64,000 bases of DNA. It comes from Prochlorococcaceae cyanobacterium jk18x22bins.40. Its GTDB lineage: Bacteria; Cyanobacteriota; Cyanobacteriia; PCC-6307; Cyanobiaceae. Of the stretch, positions 41,717-53,256 are shown one piece after another. The notes under the pieces were generated by a model. That model had not been told where the DNA came from. It made no database searches and worked only from the letters and a program-made list of their open reading frames with translations. The translations under genes were made by a program, and so were the position numbers. Where the stretch lies: positions 24,730-88,729 of the forward strand of contig JAJDVL010000034.1 of NCBI GenBank assembly GCA_022826155.1, read 5' to 3'. Each line of letters opens with the position of its first letter. The first letter of the stretch is position 1.

Positions 41717-41912
41717 TCCCAATCCTGAGGAAGGCCATCATGGGTGGAACTGGCTGGATCCCAGGCTCTGCCACAATAGACGCCATCAACGCCTGAAGCC
41801 ACTCCCCGCCATTGCCCCCACGCCTTAACCCCTCCTCCACTCCCCGCTTCCAGGGACGGTCCATCCCCAGGAGCGCGTACTCCCTGGCCTACGCTCGGCC
41901 ACAGCAGACACC

Positions 41913-44900
41913 ATGACGGCCACCAGCGACAAATTGGCCAAGGCGGTGGCCGCCTACTGCGCTGAACTCCAGCGGGTGCGGGCTTCCGGTGGCGCCACGG
42001 GGGAGCGCTCCAGCTACGGCCCACTGGCCACCCTCCTCAATGGGGTGGGGGCGACCCTCAGGCCCAAGGTGTTCTGCGTGGGGGAGCTGGCCAATCAGGG
42101 GGCAGGCCATCCTGACTTTGGCCTCTATGGGGCCAGGCAACTGCAAAGAGGGGCGCCACGGGAGGGTCAAATCCCGGAGCGGGGGGTGGTGGAGGTGAAA
42201 GGGGCCACTGATGATGCATGGCTCACCGCAACCAGCGACCAGGTGAGCCGCTATTGGGACCGTTACCGGCTGGTGTTGGTCACCAACCTGCGCCACTTTG
42301 TGTTGGTGGGGGAGGACAGCGCGGGCCGCCCCAGCAAGCTGGAAAGTTTCCAGTTGGCGGCGAGCGCCGAGGCCCTCTGGCGTGGCCTGGACACACCACA
42401 GACCTTTGCCCGCACCGCCGGCGCCGGGCTGGGGGAATACCTGGCCCGTGCCCTGTGCCACCGCGCCGCCCTGGCGGAACCGAAAGATCTGGCCTGGCTG
42501 TTGGCCTCCTATGCCCGGGACGGCCTGGCCCGGGTGGAAACGGCGGGGGACGCCCCCCAGTTGGCGGCGGTGCGCTCCGCCTTGGAGGAGGCCCTGGGGG
42601 TGCGTTTTGACGGGGAAAAAGGCATCCGCTTCTTCCGTTCCACCCTGGTGCAAACCCTCTTCTACGGCATCTTTTCCGCCTGGGTGTTATGGGGGCGGCA
42701 AGGGGAAACTCCACAAGATCGTTTCGACTGGCGCACGGCGGTGTGGCATCTGCGCTCGCCGGTGTTGGCGGCCCTGTTCCAACAACTGGCCCAGCCGGGT
42801 CGGCTCCAACCCCTGGACCTGGTGGAGGTGTTGGACTGGACCGCCGCGGCCCTGGCCCGGGTGGACCGGGCCGCCTTCTTCTCCCGCTTCAACACCGGCG
42901 AGGCGGTGCCCTACTTCTATGAACCCTTCCTGGAAGCCTTTGATCCGGCCCTGCGGAAAGAGTTGGGTGTGTGGTACACCCCCACGGCGGTGGTGCGGTC
43001 CATGGTGGCCCAGGTGGATAACGCCCTGAAACAGGACCTGCACATCCCCGACGGGCTGGCAGCCGAGAACGTGGTGGTGCTGGACCCCTGTTGTGGCACC
43101 GGCGCCTATCTGGCGGAGGTGTTGCGCCGCATCGCCGCCAACCTGACGGGCCAAGGGTTGGGGGCGTTGGCGGGGGCGCGGGTGAAAGCCGCCGCCACGG
43201 GGCGGGTGTTCGGGTTTGAGATCATGCCGGCGCCCTTTGTGATTGCCCATCTACAAGTGGGCCTCACCCTGCAAGAGCTGGACGCCCCCCTGGGGGAAAC
43301 CGACAAGGAACGGGCGGGCGTCTTCCTCACCAACGCCCTCACCGGCTGGGAACCCCGCACCAACAAGCCGTTACCCTTCCCCGAACTGGAGGAGGAGCGA
43401 GACCGGGCCGAACAAGTGAAACAAGCCCAACCCATCCTGGTGATCCTGGGCAACCCCCCCTACAACGGCTTTGCCGGCATGGCCGTGGCGGAGGAGCGGG
43501 ACCTCTCCAACGCCTACCGTCAAACCCGCCGGGTACGCCGCCCGGAAGGGCAAGGGCTCAATGATTTGTACGTGCGTTTCTTTCGGATGGCAGAACGGCG
43601 CATTGCCGAGAAAACCGGCCAAGGGGTCATCTGCTTCATTTCCAATTATTCCTGGTTGGATGGGTTGTCGTTTACGGGGATGCGGGAACGGTATCTGGAG
43701 GTGTTTGATGCGGTGCGGATTGACTGTCTGAATGGGGACAAATACAAAACCGGCAAAGTGGCGCCGGACGGCTCACCTGATCCCAGCATCTTTTCCAGCA
43801 AAGGCGATCCCGTGGGGATTCAAGTGGGCACCGCCATTGCCACCCTGGTGCGCAAGCAAGAGCACAAACCCGCCAATGGGGTGAGCTTCCGCCATCTCTG
43901 GGGACAGGGCAAGTGTGCGGAGCTACTGGAAACAGCAGAGACGGAGCCAGGCGAAGTGTACCAGAAAGTCAAGCCGGTCCTGCCGCTTGGATTGCCTTTT
44001 GTGCAGACAGCCATGAGTGAAAGTTGGTTTGATTGGCCGGCATTGCCTGGGTTATTTCCGAAGTCATTTCCTGGTGTTCAGACCAGCCGTGATGGGTTTC
44101 TCGTTGATGTGGATCTGGAGCGGCTACGGGCGCGGGTTGCCGATTACTTTAATCCGAACCTAACCCATGAAGAGATTGCACGACGTTATCCGAAAGTCAT
44201 GCAAAAGACAGCCCGGTTTGATGCCCGCGCAGTGCGAGATACACTGCTAAAGCGTGGTGGCCCCAACGAAGCTGGTTTTGTCCGCTTTTCCTATCGGCCC
44301 TTCGATAACCGCTACCTCTACTGGGAAGCAGAGACCAAGCTACTGGATGAAAAACGGGCTGACTATTGGCCACATGTGTTTGAGGGAAACCTGTGGATTG
44401 CTTCCAGTAAGCGAGAGATTCAATCCGAATTTACACATGGAGCGTGTACTTCCAAGCTTGCGAGCTGGAAGTATGGGTTCTGGGGTATCCACCTTTTCCC
44501 CACTTGGCTCCGCGATGACGGCATCACCCAGGGCAATGGAAACACCCACAGTCCCAACCTTTCCATCGCGGCCCAGAATTATCTTGCTGCCCTTGGCGCC
44601 AGCGTGGACGATTTATTCCACCATGTGCTTGCCGTGCTCCATGATCCCGCTTATCGGCAAGCCAATGCTGGCGCTTTGCGCATGGGTTGGCCCCACATCC
44701 CCCTGCCCGGTTGGCCCAAGGGCACGGCTGAAGATGCGGCGGCGTTGGCCCGTTCTGCTGCCCGTGGTCGTCAGTTGGCGGCGTTGCTGGATTGTGAGGC
44801 TCCCGTCCCTGGCGTCACCCAAGCGCCCCTGCGCCCTGAGATGGCCGTCATCGCCGTGCCCGCCACCACCCATGGGCGCAACATGGCCAGTGAGGATTTT

Positions 44901-45260
44901 GCCGTCACGGCAGGATGGGGCCATTTTGGCAAGGGCGATGCCGTCATGCCTGGCCAGGGGCGGGTGGTGGAGCGCCCCCTCACCCCAGAAGAGCGCAGCG
45001 CCATGGCAAGGGGCCATGATACACTTGCCCTAGCTGGCCAAACCACCTTGGACATCTACCTGAACGACCACGCCTTCTGGCGCAACGTGCCGCTTCCCGT
45101 CTGGCGTTACAAGCTGGGGGGGTACCAGGTGCTCAAGAAATGGCTCTCCTATCGGGAGCAGGGGGTGTTGGGGCGTGGCCTGCGGGCTGAGGAGGTGTTG
45201 CACTTTGCTGGTGTGGCGAGGCGGATTGGGGGGATTTTGGGGAAGTGCCAGCTAGCTTGA
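41913..45260 (+). CDS. Single-chain type IIG/ISP-like restriction-modification enzyme
   Basis: 1115 residues. The N-terminal nuclease domain has a PD-(D/E)xK pattern: Asp68 in HPDFGLYG and Glu94-Val-Lys96 in GVVEVKGA. A helical part follows, then an N6-adenine methyltransferase with the SAM motif DPCCGTGAYL (391-400) and the catalytic motif NPPYNGFAG (from 514). The C-terminal 450 residues should hold target recognition. All in one frame, so cutting and protective methylation are probably linked. G+C is like that of the core, unlike the genes beside it. Confidence 0.92.
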   Translation: MTATSDKLAKAVAAYCAELQRVRASGGATGERSSYGPLATLLNGVGATLRPKVFCVGELANQGAGHPDFGLYGARQLQRGAPREGQIPERGVVEVKGATDDAWLTATSDQVSRYWDRYRLVLVTNLRHFVLVGEDSAGRPSKLESFQLAASAEALWRGLDTPQTFARTAGAGLGEYLARALCHRAALAEPKDLAWLLASYARDGLARVETAGDAPQLAAVRSALEEALGVRFDGEKGIRFFRSTLVQTLFYGIFSAWVLWGRQGETPQDRFDWRTAVWHLRSPVLAALFQQLAQPGRLQPLDLVEVLDWTAAALARVDRAAFFSRFNTGEAVPYFYEPFLEAFDPALRKELGVWYTPTAVVRSMVAQVDNALKQDLHIPDGLAAENVVVLDPCCGTGAYLAEVLRRIAANLTGQGLGALAGARVKAAATGRVFGFEIMPAPFVIAHLQVGLTLQELDAPLGETDKERAGVFLTNALTGWEPRTNKPLPFPELEEERDRAEQVKQAQPILVILGNPPYNGFAGMAVAEERDLSNAYRQTRRVRRPEGQGLNDLYVRFFRMAERRIAEKTGQGVICFISNYSWLDGLSFTGMRERYLEVFDAVRIDCLNGDKYKTGKVAPDGSPDPSIFSSKGDPVGIQVGTAIATLVRKQEHKPANGVSFRHLWGQGKCAELLETAETEPGEVYQKVKPVLPLGLPFVQTAMSESWFDWPALPGLFPKSFPGVQTSRDGFLVDVDLERLRARVADYFNPNLTHEEIARRYPKVMQKTARFDARAVRDTLLKRGGPNEAGFVRFSYRPFDNRYLYWEAETKLLDEKRADYWPHVFEGNLWIASSKREIQSEFTHGACTSKLASWKYGFWGIHLFPTWLRDDGITQGNGNTHSPNLSIAAQNYLAALGASVDDLFHHVLAVLHDPAYRQANAGALRMGWPHIPLPGWPKGTAEDAAALARSAARGRQLAALLDCEAPVPGVTQAPLRPEMAVIAVPATTHGRNMASEDFAVTAGWGHFGKGDAVMPGQGRVVERPLTPEERSAMARGHDTLALAGQTTLDIYLNDHAFWRNVPLPVWRYKLGGYQVLKKWLSYREQGVLGRGLRAEEVLHFAGVARRIGGILGKCQLA

Positions 45261-45397
45261 CGCTTTCAACCAGCTAAGAAGCCCTAGACCTGCGCTCCTC
45301 TGCATTCACCTGTGCGGTCATCCGTACTAAATGGCCTGTGATTTGAGTCGTCCTGATCCTCCACAACGGTTAGGGTTGAGTGAGTTGAGGCACACAC
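45261..45397. promoter_or_regulatory. Intergenic leader before the MBL/ubiquitin-like operon
   Basis: 137 bases between the restriction gene and the MBL gene on the same strand. No terminator hairpin is evident. The only likely promoter region for the two-gene unit lies here. Confidence 0.35.
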
Positions 45398-46552
45398 ATG
45401 ACCATCCAACCTCCTGACCAGGGATTCATCTTTTGGCCAGTCGGCACCGGCGACAGCACCACCATCCGTGTGGACAAGAAGGTTTACCTACAGGTAGACC
45501 TTCATCACATGGCCAAGTCTGAAGAGGATGACGATCCAGCTTGGTCGGTAATTGATGAGCTAATCAAGATCCTGCCAATACTTGACAGAAAGCCGTACCT
45601 GTCAGTATTCGCACTCACGCATCCCGATCAGGACCACTGCCAAGGCTTCAAGGACTTGAATAATCGTGTAAAGATCTCTGAGCTTTGGATGTCACCGCGC
45701 ATATTCCGTGAGTTCCAGGAGAAGGAGAGCCTCTGTGATGACGCAAAAGCGTTTTATAATGAGGCAATGAGACGTGTCAAGGCAGCCATTGATGCCGGCG
45801 GCGACCCCGGGTATGGTCATCGAATTCGTATTATTGGCTATGATGAACTGCTGAATAAAAAACCTTTCAAAGGCTTTCCAAAAGACTTTTTAACGATTCC
45901 GGGCAATACAATCACAATTCTTGATGGCGATGATTGCTCTCACGTCTTTGAAGCCTTTGTACATGCGCCATTCAAGGATGACAGCTTGCGTGATCGTAAC
46001 GACTGCAGCCTTGCATTCCAGATCTCCCTGTTTAACAGCAAAGGTAGCGGCCAGGCGCTACTCATGGGCGACCTCAGCTATCCGATCATCCGAAAGATCT
46101 TTAATCGCAGCAAGGCTGATACACTGAAGTGGAATGTTCTCCTAGCGCCTCATCATTGCTCCAAGTCTGTCATGTACTGGAAAAATAAAGATGAAGATGA
46201 AGAGACACTAAAAGAGGATATTGTCGGTCATATCGGCGATGCTGCACTCAATCCTGGATATGTTGTCTCCAGTTCTGAGCCAGTGCCAAAGTCTAACAGT
46301 TCGGGAGATAATCCACCACACGCTAAGGCAAAGATCCAATACAAGACTATTGTTCCCAACAAATTTATTTGCACTCACGAGCATCCTGACAAGAAGGATC
46401 CAAAACCTGTCATCTTTGAGGTCAAAAAGACTGGATTCTCCTATGTCGGTAGTAACGGCAAATCCAGCAAGTCAATGCAGGATGCCCTCAAAGTCTCTGG
46501 TGGTGCCGTAGCACCTTCAACAGCAGTTGGATTTGGCCATGGCACTCACTGA
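45398..46552 (+). CDS. MBL-fold metallohydrolase (ComEC-like hydrolase domain), first gene of the ubiquitin-like unit
   Basis: 384 residues, soluble. Opening FIFWPVGTGDSTTIRV resembles the VGQGDS loop of ComEC-type hydrolases. Metal ligands: the HxDxDH signature THPDQDHCQG (His75, Asp77, Asp79, His80), Asp225 in LLMGDLS, and His252 in APHHCSK. No membrane helices are present, so this is the hydrolase part without the channel. The next gene starts 14 bases before its stop. MBL genes have been noted beside E1/E2/JAB genes in surveys of bacterial ubiquitin-like systems. Medium G+C, unlike the core. Confidence 0.9.
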   Translation: MTIQPPDQGFIFWPVGTGDSTTIRVDKKVYLQVDLHHMAKSEEDDDPAWSVIDELIKILPILDRKPYLSVFALTHPDQDHCQGFKDLNNRVKISELWMSPRIFREFQEKESLCDDAKAFYNEAMRRVKAAIDAGGDPGYGHRIRIIGYDELLNKKPFKGFPKDFLTIPGNTITILDGDDCSHVFEAFVHAPFKDDSLRDRNDCSLAFQISLFNSKGSGQALLMGDLSYPIIRKIFNRSKADTLKWNVLLAPHHCSKSVMYWKNKDEDEETLKEDIVGHIGDAALNPGYVVSSSEPVPKSNSSGDNPPHAKAKIQYKTIVPNKFICTHEHPDKKDPKPVIFEVKKTGFSYVGSNGKSSKSMQDALKVSGGAVAPSTAVGFGHGTH

Positions 46553-49500
46553 TGGCCAGAAAACTGCACGCGATCAGCTACAGAGGATCGCAGACACTGA
46601 CCGTTCTCCCCTCCACATCGTTGAGATTGAGGAGGGTGAGAACTCTGGAAGTTGGCTGACTATCTATATTTCGATTGATTGCACCCACTACGAGCGCGTT
46701 GAGAGTGGACTACCATTGCACGACAACGAAGGTATCAAGCTGTTGGTACCGCCAGATTTTCCCTTTAACCCACCTAGGGCATTGACTATTCATAGCCGGT
46801 TTCACAGATTTCCCCACGTGCAATGGGGACGCTTATTGTGCTTGTACGTGTCCCCAGATACCCAATGGAATCCCTCCCAGGGTATGCGTGGTTTTATCGC
46901 ACAGCTTGATAGCTGGCTTTGTCGTGGCGCACGCAACGAGCTTGACCATCCAGAAGGTCCACTCCATCCTCCCGTTGCCTACACAGTTGCCCCAGTATCA
47001 ATCTGTGTAAATGCTGACACGCCCAGTCGTGCCCAATGGCCATGGTTTGGTGCTGCGATACTCACTCAATCTAAGCTTGACCTTTTTGAGGTTAATTCCT
47101 GGAAATCTACATATTCTTTACAAGAAAATCAACTATTTGCACCAACATTGCTGCTGGATTTTGAACTTCCTTTTGAGTATCCAAGAACTGTTGATTCTTT
47201 ACTTCTCTATCTTGAATCTAAGGGCATTGCAAGCAGCCGCTTCCTTGTACACCTCATGCTTGCATCCGAGTACATTGCCGAGAATACTTCTTTGTATATT
47301 GGCATTGGCACGCCCTCACGTGGTATCGCTGGGGATTTCACGCAACGTCAGCAACATCTCACATTTTGGGAAATTGAAGCGCATGATGTCATCATGCTGC
47401 GTAATGCATCTATTGCTTGTGAAATTAGTAGTAACTATCAAGGCCAAGATACTCCAGAGGAAATCGAGAGACTTATTCAGTCCATGTTTAATCCTTTAAT
47501 GCAATGGCGTAAGGAAGCGCGTGTACGCTGGTGTCATGTCATCGAAAATCGTCCAGAGATCATAATCAAGCGTGATAAAGACAGCGCAATGGACTGGTTT
47601 CGCGGTAAGCGTGTAGCCCTTTGGGGCTGTGGAGCTATTGGGGGACTTATCGCTGAACACCTCGCACGAGCGGGAGTTGCTGAACTCTCTCTTTATGACA
47701 AAGCTAGAGTAACTCCGGGTTTGCTGGTGCGCCAAAACTACTTAACGTCTGACATTAACGATGCGAAAGCTGTTGCACTTGCACGTCAAATTCAACGAAT
47801 TTACCCTCACATAATAGTTAGAGTACAAATTGAGAATATTGTTTCTGAGACTCTAACAAGATCAGATTGGGACACTGGTATTGATGTGGTTATTGATGCG
47901 ACTGCTTCCCTGAGGGTGAGAACAAAGCTTGAATCTGTCCTCAAAGAGAGTGTATCGCAGATTCCAGTTGCCTCTGTGATGGTTAGCGCCAACGTACAAC
48001 ATGCGGTTGCCGTAACAATCCCTGCAGGGTTCTGCGCAGGCCCCCTTGACGTGCTTCGGCGTCTTGGACTGGCAGCAATGAAGAGGGACTGGCTTAGCGA
48101 TTGGGTCAAGGCTTTCTGGAGGTCAGATGTCCTGCAGGAGCTTCGACAACCAGAACCTGGCTGCTCTGATCCAACCTTTGTTGGTTCGCACGCTGATGTT
48201 GCAGCACTTTCAGCACGAGCGCTCAATATTTTTGCTAAGGCGTTTGCTGAGAAAGGTAATGACGCAAACGGTTTTCTGTTTTCTCAAACACCTGAGCACC
48301 GCGAACATCACTTCAAGTTTCGTCCAGATATTCGCTGGACTGCTGACGGATTGGATTTCCGAATGTCACAACATGCTTGGCGAGATATGATCGGCTGGAT
48401 TCGTGCTGGAGCCCGCGAACGATCTATAAATCATGAAACAGGTGGTCTGCTATTTGGATACTTTGATGAAACTCTGGATATTGTATGGATAAATAATGTT
48501 AGTGGCTCGCCACAAGACAGCAAATTCTCTGAAGAGCACTTCATATGTGGAACTAATGGTATAGAGGACCTATGCAAAAGTTACAAAGAACAAACCCATG
48601 AGATCGTGTGCTGCATCGGCACTTGGCATTCCCATCCAACCAGTGCTGCTAAGCCCAGTGCCATAGACCATAAAGCTATCGACTCCATCTTTACTGGCGC
48701 CCATGGCGATGGCTTCCATCAGTTGATGATTATCGTCGGATATGCTGCCAAACAACAACCACAGATTGGGGCTTATATGTTCGAGAGGCGCGAATCGGCT
48801 TCACAGCAGACTGGAATCAAAAAAGCTCCTCGTGGGGGAGTGACGATACCACCCCCCGTAGCGCGCCTTGGCAAGAGAATTGGACTGTCCCTATCCGGTG
48901 GCGGATCCCGCGCTGTTGCCTTCCATCTCGGCACATTGCGTGCTCTTGAAGATCTCCAGCTACTTGATGAGGTTGATATCATTTCTGGTGTGTCTGGCGG
49001 GTCGGTAATGACAGGTTTAATTGGTTATACTAACGCTCCATTTGCAGAGATTGATAGAAATGCTCTCAAGTTCCTTCGTCGTGGTTTGTTCAAGCCTGCA
49101 CTAATGAAGCTTCTTCATCCTGGTCGCTTCATTCGATTCCTATTGAATCTTATGGCAGTTGACATACCAAACGACTATTCACGCACGCATGTTATGGCTG
49201 ATGCTGTTAGTGATTTAGTAGGTACTCAGAACTGCGATGCACCCACACGCCAGAACAAGTCCATTGTCTTCAATGCATGCGAGCTCAGAACTGGTACTGC
49301 GTTCCGAATGAGTAATAAATGCTTTGGCTCTTGGCGTTATGGCTATGTACCAGCTAGTAATCTGAGGATAGCGGATGCAGTTATGGCTTCTGCTGCCTAT
49401 CCGCCACTGCTTCCGCCATACGACTGGAGAATCACTTTTAAGAAGACAGAAAATGATCAAGTCAAAACAAAAGCACATCGCGTGATTATCACTGATGGAG

Positions 49501-49937
49501 GCGTATTTGATAATCTTGGTGTAAGTGTTATGGAACCTGGGCGTAACCCTACAATTAGTCAGATTAGCTTTGATCCTAATATTATTATTGTAAGCGACGC
49601 TGGTACAGGGCAGTTTTCTGGCCACGGCGTGCCTGTAATCTGGCCATGTCGGATGATCCAGGTTGCCTCAGCAATCATGCGCAAGGCCCAGGATGCAACG
49701 AAGAAATGCCTACATGGTTATGTAAGAACTGGCTGCATTGATAATTTTATCTACATTCATCTCGGTCAAATTGACAATCGTGTATCTCTTAAACCTGCTA
49801 ACTGGATCAACCGTGATGACGTGATTGACTATCCAGTTGATTTTTGCGAAATGTCTGAGGAAAATATTAAGCAACTCTCTACACGTGGCGAGACAATCAC
49901 TCGAGCACTGGTGACACAATATCTACTCACTGATTAA
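46539..49937 (+). CDS. E2-E1-JAB-patatin fusion protein (ubiquitin-like conjugation, deconjugation and phospholipase domains in one chain)
   Basis: 1132 residues from the ATG at 46539; a TTG 12 bases upstream is also in frame. Residues 1-145: E2/UBC-like fold, DFPFNPPRALTIHSRFHRFP, with the likely catalytic Cys101 in GRLLCLY. 145-340: unassigned. 340-580: E1/ThiF domain with GCGAIGG (363-369), Asp387 and a candidate thioester Cys542 in GCSDPTFVGSHAD. 600-755: JAB/JAMM isopeptidase with Glu633, His697, His699, Ser707 and Asp710. 775-1100: patatin phospholipase with GGGSR (787-791), Ser819 in GVSGGS and Asp986 in TDGG. All sites are intact and in frame. Coupled to the MBL gene by a 14-base overlap. 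Confidence 0.95.
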   Translation: MALTDGQKTARDQLQRIADTDRSPLHIVEIEEGENSGSWLTIYISIDCTHYERVESGLPLHDNEGIKLLVPPDFPFNPPRALTIHSRFHRFPHVQWGRLLCLYVSPDTQWNPSQGMRGFIAQLDSWLCRGARNELDHPEGPLHPPVAYTVAPVSICVNADTPSRAQWPWFGAAILTQSKLDLFEVNSWKSTYSLQENQLFAPTLLLDFELPFEYPRTVDSLLLYLESKGIASSRFLVHLMLASEYIAENTSLYIGIGTPSRGIAGDFTQRQQHLTFWEIEAHDVIMLRNASIACEISSNYQGQDTPEEIERLIQSMFNPLMQWRKEARVRWCHVIENRPEIIIKRDKDSAMDWFRGKRVALWGCGAIGGLIAEHLARAGVAELSLYDKARVTPGLLVRQNYLTSDINDAKAVALARQIQRIYPHIIVRVQIENIVSETLTRSDWDTGIDVVIDATASLRVRTKLESVLKESVSQIPVASVMVSANVQHAVAVTIPAGFCAGPLDVLRRLGLAAMKRDWLSDWVKAFWRSDVLQELRQPEPGCSDPTFVGSHADVAALSARALNIFAKAFAEKGNDANGFLFSQTPEHREHHFKFRPDIRWTADGLDFRMSQHAWRDMIGWIRAGARERSINHETGGLLFGYFDETLDIVWINNVSGSPQDSKFSEEHFICGTNGIEDLCKSYKEQTHEIVCCIGTWHSHPTSAAKPSAIDHKAIDSIFTGAHGDGFHQLMIIVGYAAKQQPQIGAYMFERRESASQQTGIKKAPRGGVTIPPPVARLGKRIGLSLSGGGSRAVAFHLGTLRALEDLQLLDEVDIISGVSGGSVMTGLIGYTNAPFAEIDRNALKFLRRGLFKPALMKLLHPGRFIRFLLNLMAVDIPNDYSRTHVMADAVSDLVGTQNCDAPTRQNKSIVFNACELRTGTAFRMSNKCFGSWRYGYVPASNLRIADAVMASAAYPPLLPPYDWRITFKKTENDQVKTKAHRVIITDGGVFDNLGVSVMEPGRNPTISQISFDPNIIIVSDAGTGQFSGHGVPVIWPCRMIQVASAIMRKAQDATKKCLHGYVRTGCIDNFIYIHLGQIDNRVSLKPANWINRDDVIDYPVDFCEMSEENIKQLSTRGETITRALVTQYLLTD

Positions 49938-50001
49938 GAGTTTCTTATTTAAGAATTGATATCAAAGCTTTTGTATTATAGACCAAGCAGAATGGCGCCA
50001 T

Positions 50002-50280
50002 TCATGCATTCATGGACGAACGAGCCCAGGCAACGGCGTCGCTCACATCACTCTGGGAAATCCCCTGCTTGGCAAGCCTCTTACGCACAGCGTCAGCACA
50101 GTTTGGGGCTTTCGTCTTCTCCATCTCTGCCATGGTTGCATTGTCCATGCCAGGTTCCACAACATCAGTTGAAGGTTGATGGGGTCGTCCACGCCAGTCT
50201 GCTGACGGGAAGCCTGAGAAGCCTTGACCGACCCCAGACTCACCCCAGCCTACCGATGTCACGGTGGGTTGCTTGGTCAT
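50002..50280 (-). CDS. Small protein of unknown function next to the ubiquitin-like unit
   Basis: 92 residues from the Met of MTKQPTVTSVGWGESGVGQG. The N-terminal half is Gly/Ser/Pro-rich and probably disordered. The C-terminal half is helical: CADAVRKRLAKQGISQSDVSDAVAWARSS, similar in style to small antitoxins or ribbon-helix DNA binders. It converges on the fusion gene with a 64-base gap. No domain is firmly recognised. The GC content is intermediate. Confidence 0.55.
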   Translation of the reverse strand: MTKQPTVTSVGWGESGVGQGFSGFPSADWRGRPHQPSTDVVEPGMDNATMAEMEKTKAPNCADAVRKRLAKQGISQSDVSDAVAWARSSMNA

Positions 50281-50554
50281 CCGTCGTTCCTGGAGGCACT
50301 GTTTCAAGGAACCTACCATAGGTCACGCTGCCATGGGGCCATACCCGTGGCAACTGCGGCTGCTTGACGGGACAGCCTAAGCTTGAAGAGCACCAAGGTG
50401 AGGTGGCAACAGCGGATATCAACACCTGTGCAGGAAGGCCATCACTGATCCACCGGCCTATCCAGGCTGATTGTTCTGTGCTCCATTCCCGTCAGCCGGC
50501 CTGGACTGGAATAGAGCCTGTGCTGGCGGCCGGTCCCATGACCATGGGGAGCAC
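50281..50554. other. Right junction of the accessory island
   Basis: About 270 bases between the small gene and the acs stop. No credible gene, tRNA or long repeat. Several antisense open frames here have no coding signal. Composition returns to the high G+C of the core. Confidence 0.4.
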
Positions 50555-52528
50555 CTAACCCCCACCCCGCAACCTTTCTAGCACCGTGGCATCTTCCAGG
50601 GTGCTGGTGTCCCCTGTGATGGTTTGCCCACTGGCCAGGGAGCGCAGGATGCGGCGCATGATTTTGCCGCTGCGGGTTTTGGGGAGCACGTCGGTGAAGC
50701 AGATGTCGTCGGGTTTGGCGATGGGGCCGATTTCGTGGGCCACGTGTTGGCGCAGGGCTTGCATCAGGGCGTCGTCCCCTTGCCGGCCCGCCTCCAGGAT
50801 GACAAACGCTGCTACGGCGCTGCCTTTGAGAGCATCGGGTCTGCCCACCACGGCTGCTTCCGCTACGGCGGGATGGCTCACCAGGGCGGATTCGATTTCC
50901 ATGGTGCCCAGCCGGTGGCCGGAAACGTTGATCACGTCATCCACCCGCCCCATGATCCAGAAATAGCCGTCCTCGTCCCGGTGGGCCCCGTCCCCGGCAA
51001 AGTAGAGGGGTTGGCCGTCGCCATGGGGCAAGGCGCCCCAATAGCTCTTCCGGAAACGCTCCTCGTCCCCATGGACGGTGCGCATCATGCCGGGCCATGG
51101 TTGCCGCAGGGCCAGATAGCCCCCCTGGCCGGCCGGCAGGCTTCGGCCCTCTTCATCCACCACGTCAGCGGCGATGCCGGGCAGGGGCAGGGTGGCGGAG
51201 CCCGGCTTGAGGGGGGTGGCGCCGGGGAGGGGGGCAATCATCATGCCGCCGGTTTCCGTCTGCCACCAGGTGTCCAGCACGGGGCAGCGGCCACCGCCGA
51301 TCACCTCCCGGTACCACATCCAGGCTTCCGGGTTGATGGGTTCCCCCACGGTGCCCAATAGCCGCAGGGAGGACAGGTCATGGCCGTCGGGAATCTGGCG
51401 ACCGGCCCGCATGAAGGCCCGGATCACCGTGGGGGCGGTGTAGAAGATGGTGATGCGGTGTTTTTCGATGAGCTCCCAGAATGCTCCGGGCTTGGAGGGG
51501 CGGGGGGCCCCTTCATACATCACCGTGGTGGCCCCGTTGGAGAGGGGGCCATAGACGATATAGCTGTGGCCTGTGATCCAGCCCACGTCGGCGGTACACC
51601 AGTAGATGTCGTCTTCCTGCAGATCAAAGACCCATTGGCAGGTGAGATGGGCCCACAGGTTGTAGCCCGCCGTGGTGTGGACCACCCCCTTGGGTTTGCC
51701 CGTGGAGCCGGAGGTGTAGAGGATGAAGAGGCGGTCTTCGCTGTCCATGGGTTCGGCGGGGCAGTCTTCGCTGGCCCCCTCCATGAGCCCATGCCACCAG
51801 TGGTCTTGCCCTGGGGTCATGGTGATGGGTGTCTCCGTGCGGCGCACCACCACCACGTCCTGCACACTGGGGCAGGCGTCATCCGCCAGGGCCTCGTCCA
51901 CGGCGGGCTTGAGGGGAACGGCCTTGTCCTTGCGGAAGCCCCCATCCGCGGTGATCACCACCCTAGCCTGGCCATCAATGAGGCGATCCCGCAACGCTTC
52001 CGCGGAAAAGCCGCCAAACACAATGGAATGGGGGGCCCCAAGGCGGGCACAGGCCAGCATGGCGATGGCCGCCTCCGGCACCATGGGCATATAGAGGGCC
52101 ACCAGGTCCCCTTTGCGGACGCCAAGGCCTTTGAGGGCATTGGCGAAGCGGCACACCTGGCGGTGGAGGTCCCGGTAGCTGAGCCGCCGCACATCGCCGG
52201 GTTCCCCCTCCCAGAGGATGGCGGTTTTTTCTGCCCGTCCATGGGCCAGATGGCGATCCAGGCAGTTGAAGGACACGTTGGTGCGGCCGCCGCTGAACCA
52301 GCGGGCCATGGGGGCGGCACTCCAGTCCAACACCTGGCGGAAGGGTTCAAACCAGTGGAGCTCCTGGCGGGCCAGACGCCCCCAGAAGCCTTCCGGGTCC
52401 CGTTGGGCTTCCTTTGCCAGGGCGGTGTAGGCAGCCATGCCCCCAATGCGGGCCTGCTGTTGCGCATCTGCAGGGGGCGCAAAGCAGCGCGCTTCGTGGA
52501 GGATGGATTCAATGCCAGCCGCAGCCAT
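50555..52528 (-). CDS. acs: Acetate-CoA ligase (acetyl-CoA synthetase)
   Basis: 657 residues from [16 protein letters not shown]; an ATG 27 bases upstream is also possible. Activates acetate to acetyl-CoA through acetyl-AMP. Adenylation signatures: [31 protein letters not shown], and the regulatory acetylation lysine in TRSGKIMRR near the C-terminus. Full length. First core gene after the island. Confidence 0.96.
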
Positions 52529-52590
52529 GGATCCCAGCCAGTAACGTGGCTCCATTCAACCCCCTGGAGGATCCCTTCCGCTCATCCGCC

Positions 52591-53256
52591 ATGAAGTCTT
52601 GCGAGAACGCAGTTGAGCCGAATGATCCCGGCACCTATGGGAATACTGCGCCCCTGCATCGGGGGATGAGCATCAAGGAATTCGACAACGCCTATGACTA
52701 CGCTGCTGAACTGAAGCGTTTCGCCCGTGAGGTTGGCATCACCGCAGGCAATTTCCGCAAGGTGGAGTTGGAGGCGTTAATCCGGGAATTCCTGCAAACG
52801 GGAAAGGTGCCGGACCGCAAGCCGGTCATGCCCCGCAAGCCTGGGGAGGCCCGCGATGTGCTCAAGCCTGACACGGTGGTCACCAACTACGTGGGAGACA
52901 AGACGACCAAAGCCTTCCTGCTGGATCTGGTCCAGGCTGCTGCGCCAGGCCTGGGAATCAAGTCAGGCCAATGGTACTGGCTGAACGACTGGCGACGCCA
53001 GCAGCAAGAGGCGTGCTTACGCTTCACCTATGGCGACATGGCTGACCACCTGCGCAGCCTGATGCAGACCGAAGGCCGCCTGCCGCAGATCCCCTCGGCC
53101 CGCATGAACAATTTCATCACCGCGTTCCGGGCGGATCCGGACAATGCCAGCATCTCAAGGGAAGGGATGCTGGCGGCCTGGATGTGGCTGAAGGTGCAGC
53201 CGGGTCCCAGCACCTATACCGAGTTTTGCCGGCTGACCCCTCAATCCTCGCAGTAA
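52591..53256 (+). CDS. SAP-domain protein (DUF6434-like)
   Basis: 221 residues from the ATG at 52591. The N-terminal SAP-like helix-extended-helix motif, often DNA- or RNA-binding, is AAELKRFAREVGITAGNFRKVELEALIREFLQTGKV. A second conserved block follows: TKAFLLDLVQAAAPGLGIKSGQWYWLNDWRRQQ and TYGDMADHL. I recognise this two-block layout from SAP/DUF6434 proteins of proteobacteria, so horizontal transfer is possible. Divergent from acs with a 62-base gap. Confidence 0.8.
   Translation: MKSCENAVEPNDPGTYGNTAPLHRGMSIKEFDNAYDYAAELKRFAREVGITAGNFRKVELEALIREFLQTGKVPDRKPVMPRKPGEARDVLKPDTVVTNYVGDKTTKAFLLDLVQAAAPGLGIKSGQWYWLNDWRRQQQEACLRFTYGDMADHLRSLMQTEGRLPQIPSARMNNFITAFRADPDNASISREGMLAAWMWLKVQPGPSTYTEFCRLTPQSSQ

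Follow-up and report, generated by a model that had tools for sequence, protein, structure and literature searches.

A patatin-fused E2-E1-JAB protein and a glycine-tailed metallo-beta-lactamase-fold protein as its candidate conjugation partner in a cyanobacterial 6A-MBL locus

In 2006, Iyer, Burroughs and Aravind described, as row 6a of their classification, bacterial operons coding for a triple-module protein made of E2, E1 and JAB, in which a metallo-beta-lactamase (MBL) gene is almost always adjacent and its role was listed as uncharacterized (PMC1779556). In the passages on other systems compared here, the C-terminal Gly/Ala of the CD-NTase of CBASS is conserved only in operons with Cap2 and Cap3 and is conjugated (PMC10097602, PMC11153139), CapV is the effector of an E. 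coli CBASS system and is called a phospholipase (PMC10449767), and the Bil systems consist of separate genes together with a beta-grasp modifier, BilA (PMC11354881). Here we examine a locus within a 64,000-nucleotide stretch of DNA (the window) from Prochlorococcaceae cyanobacterium jk18x22bins.40 (assembly GCA_022826155.1, contig JAJDVL010000034.1, positions 24,730 to 88,729), in which the gene of an MBL-fold protein is followed by that of a single polypeptide joining E2, E1, JAB and patatin-like phospholipase domains (Table 1). Sequence comparisons lead us to propose, with a probability of roughly 0.6, that the MBL protein is conjugated by the E1-E2 part through a C-terminal glycine, that its tail is trimmed and the bond reversed by the JAB part, and that the patatin part likely attacks the membrane of its own cell when a phage infects it.

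Both proteins were assigned to the family that NCBIfam labels 'anti-phage 6A-MBL system'. The fusion matched NF058523 (6A-MBL_cap2_3) over residues 56-732 with 355.6 bits against a cut-off of 320, and the MBL protein matched NF058524 (6A-MBL_enzyme) with 297.8 bits against 220, the match ending at residue 346; the two genes are adjacent and on the same strand. Unfused relatives likewise exceeded the cut-offs (6/6 gene-2 proteins and 4/4 MBL proteins given). When 386 genomes were searched with NF058523, matches were found in 370, mostly through the ThiF part in the rows listed, and one was above the cut-off. As in row 6a, E2, E1 and JAB occur in a single chain, in the same order and with an adjoining MBL gene, and the row 6a member 'Goxy', which we take to be Gluconobacter oxydans, carries this operon with an additional patatin gene (pGOX1). 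Unlike 6A-MBL as described, the window protein carries a C-terminally fused patatin, which lies outside the NCBIfam model, and the word 'patatin' does not appear in the main text of PMC1779556; the tail of the MBL protein is also outside its model. A preliminary description of this stretch had named no described system with this architecture, which holds for the fused patatin but not for the association of E2-E1-JAB with MBL. Relative to row 6a and NCBIfam, the recurrent patatin or membrane-protein partner and the MBL as a proposed conjugated modifier are new, but the tail or the patatin may already be in recent literature.

Lying on the same strand, the reading frames of the MBL protein and the fusion share 14 nucleotides, a point absent from the preliminary description, which had placed both genes in one operon. 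The fusion frame can start at TTG 46527 (1136 residues) or ATG 46539 (1132 residues), in both cases ending at 49937. All four domains scored above their Pfam gathering cut-offs: Prok-E2_A with 62.9 bits (cut-off 25; residues 37-162), ThiF with 63.3 (28.1; 354-479), Prok-JAB with 32 (25; 627-717) and Patatin with 72.1 (27.7; 783-996), the latter with the motifs GGGSR at 787, GVSGGS at 817 and TDGG at 985. The structure model of the fusion had a pLDDT of 77.9 and a pTM of 0.74, and Cap2 was the best fold match of its E1 part, over which the VIA-align rows mainly lie.

The fusion recurs well beyond the window. Homologues were taken as 120 listed of 892 matching proteins, among 7994 scored candidates, with 52-90% identity. 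ThiF, JAB and patatin were joined in all 120, and all four domains in 115, the remaining five being shorter proteins in which only the E2 call was missing. Cys101 of E2 was kept in 115 and gapped in the other five, while Cys542, Glu633, His697, His699, Ser707, Asp710, Ser819 and Asp986 were kept in every one; D387, R398, N400, K410 and D453, presumably the residues of E1 adenylation, were likewise invariant. Cys101, Cys542 and the JAMM residues were also kept in 23/23 unfused E2-E1-JAB proteins from plasmids (23 of 25, two broken proteins being excluded). The copy in a sister species (a Prochlorococcaceae metagenome-assembled genome) was 91-92% identical over residues 1-1132 without any stop, and the ratio of non-synonymous to synonymous substitution rates (dN/dS) between both copies was 0.25 overall, ranging from 0.19 to 0.31 by domain, with 0.27 in the patatin part; purifying selection thus acts on each part of the fusion. 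A frameshift or an assembly join was ruled out by the joined domains of the homologues and the intact sister-species copy. The uninterrupted frame of about 1132 residues, its four domains and the positions of the catalytic residues and motifs, all read beforehand from the letters of the window, were therefore upheld. Six peptide patterns of the fusion gave no matches in the viral contigs of IMG/VR, a search that reaches close relatives only and did not include phage records.

Table 1. Features of the 6A-MBL locus and its upstream neighbour, in window coordinates
Feature	Position	Strand	Basis or remark
Type ISP restriction enzyme, directly upstream of the MBL gene	41913..45260	+	Type_ISP_C, 130.6 bits
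MBL-fold protein, 384 residues	45398..46552	+	NCBIfam 6A-MBL_enzyme
C-terminal tail of the MBL protein (residues 353-384), modelled as disordered	46454..46549	+	pLDDT <50; beyond the NCBIfam match
GFG motif, residues 378-380, proposed conjugation or trimming point	46529..46537	+	Followed by HGTH, 46538-46549
E2-E1-JAB-patatin fusion, 1132 residues	46539..49937	+	Pfam, NCBIfam, structure model
E2 domain (Prok-E2_A), residues 37-162	46647..47024	+	Cys101 codon 46839-46841
E1/ThiF adenylation region, residues 354-600	47598..48338	+	Cys542 codon 48162-48164
JAB/JAMM isopeptidase domain, residues 627-734	48417..48740	+	Pfam, NCBIfam; JAMM residues conserved
RGG, residues 765-767, JAB-patatin linker	48831..48839	+	Conservation in 120 listed homologues
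Patatin-like phospholipase domain, residues 783-1132	48885..49934	+	Ser819/Asp986

Elsewhere, the patatin is encoded separately or replaced. Separate and often overlapping genes for MBL, E2-E1-JAB and patatin were found on plasmids, for instance those of Gluconobacter (pGOX1), Ruegeria, Bradyrhizobium, Rhodococcus and Streptomyces. The third protein had instead 2-4 hydrophobic segments in Nostoc, Deinococcus, Methylocystis, Burkholderia glumae and Acinetobacter (DUF6338), and 3-4 in each of six further cyanobacterial loci, and in the loci of E. coli and Klebsiella a predicted membrane protein was encoded in a divergent cluster beside a WYL gene. Altogether, 32/33 loci had either patatin or a membrane protein, the latter by prediction, as a fusion, downstream or in a divergent cluster. 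Patatin accounted for 14 (fused in one, encoded downstream in 11, downstream but on the opposite strand in one and, in Hymenobacter, in the divergent cluster) and the membrane protein for 18, a ratio that means little since the loci were hand-picked and the first ten came through matches to the fusion; neither was seen in Pseudarthrobacter, where the record ends. None of ten third-gene proteins exceeded an NCBIfam cut-off, that of Polaromonas being weakly similar to ComEC_Rec2. On the best E2-E1-JAB tree, built with 24 fused rows (23 of the 120 listed and the window), 23 plasmid and six cyanobacterial loci and leaving out homologue P0079, which did not fit the pattern used for the start of the patatin, the fusion could be explained by a single change (support 79/96; 82% of bootstrap trees), the membrane protein needing six and the patatin four. 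The fusion hence joins genes 2 and 3 of the operon and has one origin on the best tree. Given the swaps between patatin and membrane protein, the window locus would have fused an interchangeable partner, most simply an effector.

Variants of this gene order were also recorded. In Magnetospirillum (L057) and Rhizobium brockwellii (L067), the gene for the third protein (patatin or membrane protein) faces that of E2-E1-JAB from the other strand, in convergent orientation, and in Polaromonas a second, short ComEC-like MBL gene (L060:9017-9826) stands between those of E2-E1-JAB and the membrane protein. On plasmids of E. coli and Klebsiella (L065, L066, L068), the 6A-MBL operon has two genes and is accompanied by a divergent WYL regulator gene and by the gene of a small protein predicted to lie in the membrane; matches to the MBL protein were obtained in 246 plasmid records, 124 of them from Klebsiella.

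The MBL proteins share a C-terminal tail in which a glycine motif (GFG, RAG or HG) is often followed by a few variable residues. GFG plus 0-4 residues forms the C-terminus of 117/120 homologues of the window protein, with a four-residue extension in 109/117, and PRAG plus 0-7 residues that of 119/120 MBLs of the Gluconobacter type, with 47 different extensions including none. These counts come from the best 120 of 2616 and the best 120 of 3284 matches and rest on the search pattern, so that their letters are partly selected; three of the four proteins lacking the motif (three in the GFG set, one in the PRAG set) look frame-shifted. Across the 33 loci, with all MBLs counted, including that of Roseomonas (an artefact, being cut by an insertion sequence), and with the window fusion among the gene-2 proteins, glycine was the last residue in 20/33 MBL, 2/32 gene-2 and 1/27 third-gene proteins, and occurred within the last five residues in 33/33, 11/32 and 5/27, respectively.

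The type of tail fits the tree of the conjugation enzymes better than that of the MBL bodies. At 28/33 loci, tail types required two changes (the minimum) on the E2-E1-JAB tree versus three on the MBL-body tree; excluded were Roseomonas (MBL cut by an insertion sequence), Streptomyces and Bradyrhizobium barranii (gene 2 broken or started late), E. coli XJW (a near copy) and Pseudarthrobacter (no annotated gene 2). One or two natural chimaeras contribute to this fit: the MBL bodies of Acinetobacter, E. coli and Klebsiella group with the HG type, yet they bear RAG tails and accompany RAG-clade enzymes. That the tail is conserved merely by gene overlap or by a ribosome-binding site was partly rejected, as its codons vary among loci and as it is kept in 13 loci in which gene 2 starts past the MBL stop, with annotated or called gaps of 0-95 nucleotides and, in L091, of 277; in the GFG clade, overlap still confounds. 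Five of these gaps exceed six nucleotides (8, 17, 74, 95 and 277), some starts possibly being called too late, and that of B. barranii was excluded because of its uncertain gene-2 start.

These tails invite comparison with type II CBASS, which the locus resembles in its Cap2-like E2-E1 fold and in a partner enzyme that is not a beta-grasp protein and ends in a glycine motif. In contrast to CBASS, an MBL protein stands in place of the CD-NTase, residues often follow the glycine, and JAB and patatin share one chain with E2-E1 rather than JAB being a separate gene (Cap3). Membership of type II CBASS was rejected, no CD-NTase being found among the neighbouring open reading frames scanned and the SMODS profile PF18144, the one used, being absent from the genome. 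Bil also encodes E1, E2 and JAB within one operon, but as separate genes and with BilA, whereas here there is a single chain and no beta-grasp modifier was seen: the operon has no BilA-like gene and no leftover reading frame of at least 80 residues (shorter ones were not examined), 137 nucleotides separate the upstream restriction enzyme gene from the MBL gene, and two downstream frames (49956-50321 and 50002-50319) have no Pfam match. The MBL protein also differs from the MBL domain of ComEC/Rec2 in being stand-alone and in its disordered glycine tail. From these comparisons, the conjugated modifier looks like the MBL protein and not like a beta-grasp protein. The JAB part would remove the residues past the glycine (HGTH here); the E1 part would then adenylate the glycine and pass the MBL protein as a thioester to Cys542 and on to Cys101, as Cap2 does with the CD-NTase. 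Conjugation, or release, might prime the MBL enzyme or place it at the infection site, and the patatin could be activated by a signal from this enzyme or by contact with it, which is the least certain step.

Different scenarios might account for the same locus. The tail could be a docking peptide or a brake for E1 or JAB, the true modifier being encoded elsewhere; the overlap of the GFG-type tail with the next gene would agree with this, but we consider it improbable, since 0-7 variable residues behind a constant PRAG fit trimming, the tail persists in the 13 loci without overlap, and the operon has no spare reading frame of at least 80 residues for another modifier. The MBL protein could itself be the effector, a ComEC-like nuclease or phosphodiesterase that conjugation brings to targets of the phage, in which case the patatin or membrane protein would only help or sense. 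This seems unlikely in view of the membrane-directed partner near 32/33 loci, including the membrane protein of the divergent cluster beside the WYL gene, and of the patatin catalytic Ser and Asp kept in 120/120 listed homologues. The preliminary description, whose interpretation is supported in part, had proposed control in cis, with conjugation and deconjugation of the fused chain switching the lipase on or off. The union of all parts in one chain, their single origin on the best tree and the purifying selection on each would agree with it, as would the conserved RGG of the linker (R in 106, G in 120 and G in 115 of the 120 listed homologues, the rest of the linker being variable), if this were a JAB cleavage point; yet other operons have a separate patatin or membrane protein instead, so that the general function does not depend on fusion, and control in cis appears very doubtful. 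RGG, modelled within a short strand (residues 765-769), resembles a JAB cleavage site and is a possible self-cleavage point, but may instead be structural. A fuller version, in which a ComEC-fold hydrolase serves as a ubiquitin-like modifier, matured by JAB at its glycine and conjugated by E1/E2, and in which the fusion, as a single chain, processes itself through a JAB that also cuts RGG765-767 to free the patatin upon infection, is tentative and on the whole rather unlikely.

Several points weigh against conjugation of the MBL protein coupled to membrane damage as well. The 'anti-phage' label is NCBIfam's alone, no source behind it being found. Membrane segments were called by hydropathy alone, the first ten loci favour patatin, the two of E. 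coli and that of Klebsiella are close kin, and the patatin model has weak stretches at residues 954-1050. Both tail sets consist of near relatives. In the GFG clade, the 14-nucleotide overlap with the start of the next gene may partly explain the near-constant four-residue extension, and where genes do not overlap they are often only 0-8 nucleotides apart, so that the ribosome-binding site of the next gene may constrain the tail codons. Only one or two events underlie the chimaera argument, and long branches prompted a warning from the tree program. Finally, the search for MBL homologues lacking E2-E1-JAB, wanted as a control, yielded none, all seven above the cut-off in 291 cyanobacteria being accompanied by it (one partial match below the cut-off was excluded).

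The locus lies in a block of 8.6 kb (41911-50510; restriction enzyme, MBL and fusion). The sister species has this block at 90.3% identity, between different immediate flanks and inverted relative to a region like window positions 56.2-60.5 kb, about 12 kb away on the sister contig. The fusion is absent from the congener genomes G004, G006 and G009; in G004 and G009 the acs flank is present but the block is missing, and the G006 contig ends inside acs. The block thus fits a mobile defence block. When its edges were searched for terminal repeats, inside and against each other, no clear target repeat emerged. One 13-base word is common to both edges (41728 and 50432), but its left copy lies about 180 bases beyond the left edge and its right copy about 70 bases within the block; a shared 12-base word arises in 1/200 shuffles of the edges. 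Nearby are a SocA/Panacea antitoxin-like gene (PF13274; 40029-40807, minus strand), whose small neighbour contains a hydrophobic stretch, matches no Pfam family above the cut-off and perhaps forms a toxin-antitoxin pair with it, and, downstream of acs, the gene of a SAP_new25 domain protein (52414-53256, plus strand).

In the passages of the literature compared, the CD-NTase of CBASS stands alone as a protein without a beta-grasp fold that an E1-E2 machine charges. A second such modifier of unrelated fold, if true, would suggest that bacterial E1-E2 machines can be retargeted by the addition of a glycine tail, and the role of the MBL in row 6a operons becomes directly testable. With patatin and membrane proteins alternating next to one conjugation core, 6A-MBL is a modular system in the way that CBASS is, and the fusion offers one chain for the joint study of conjugation and effector.
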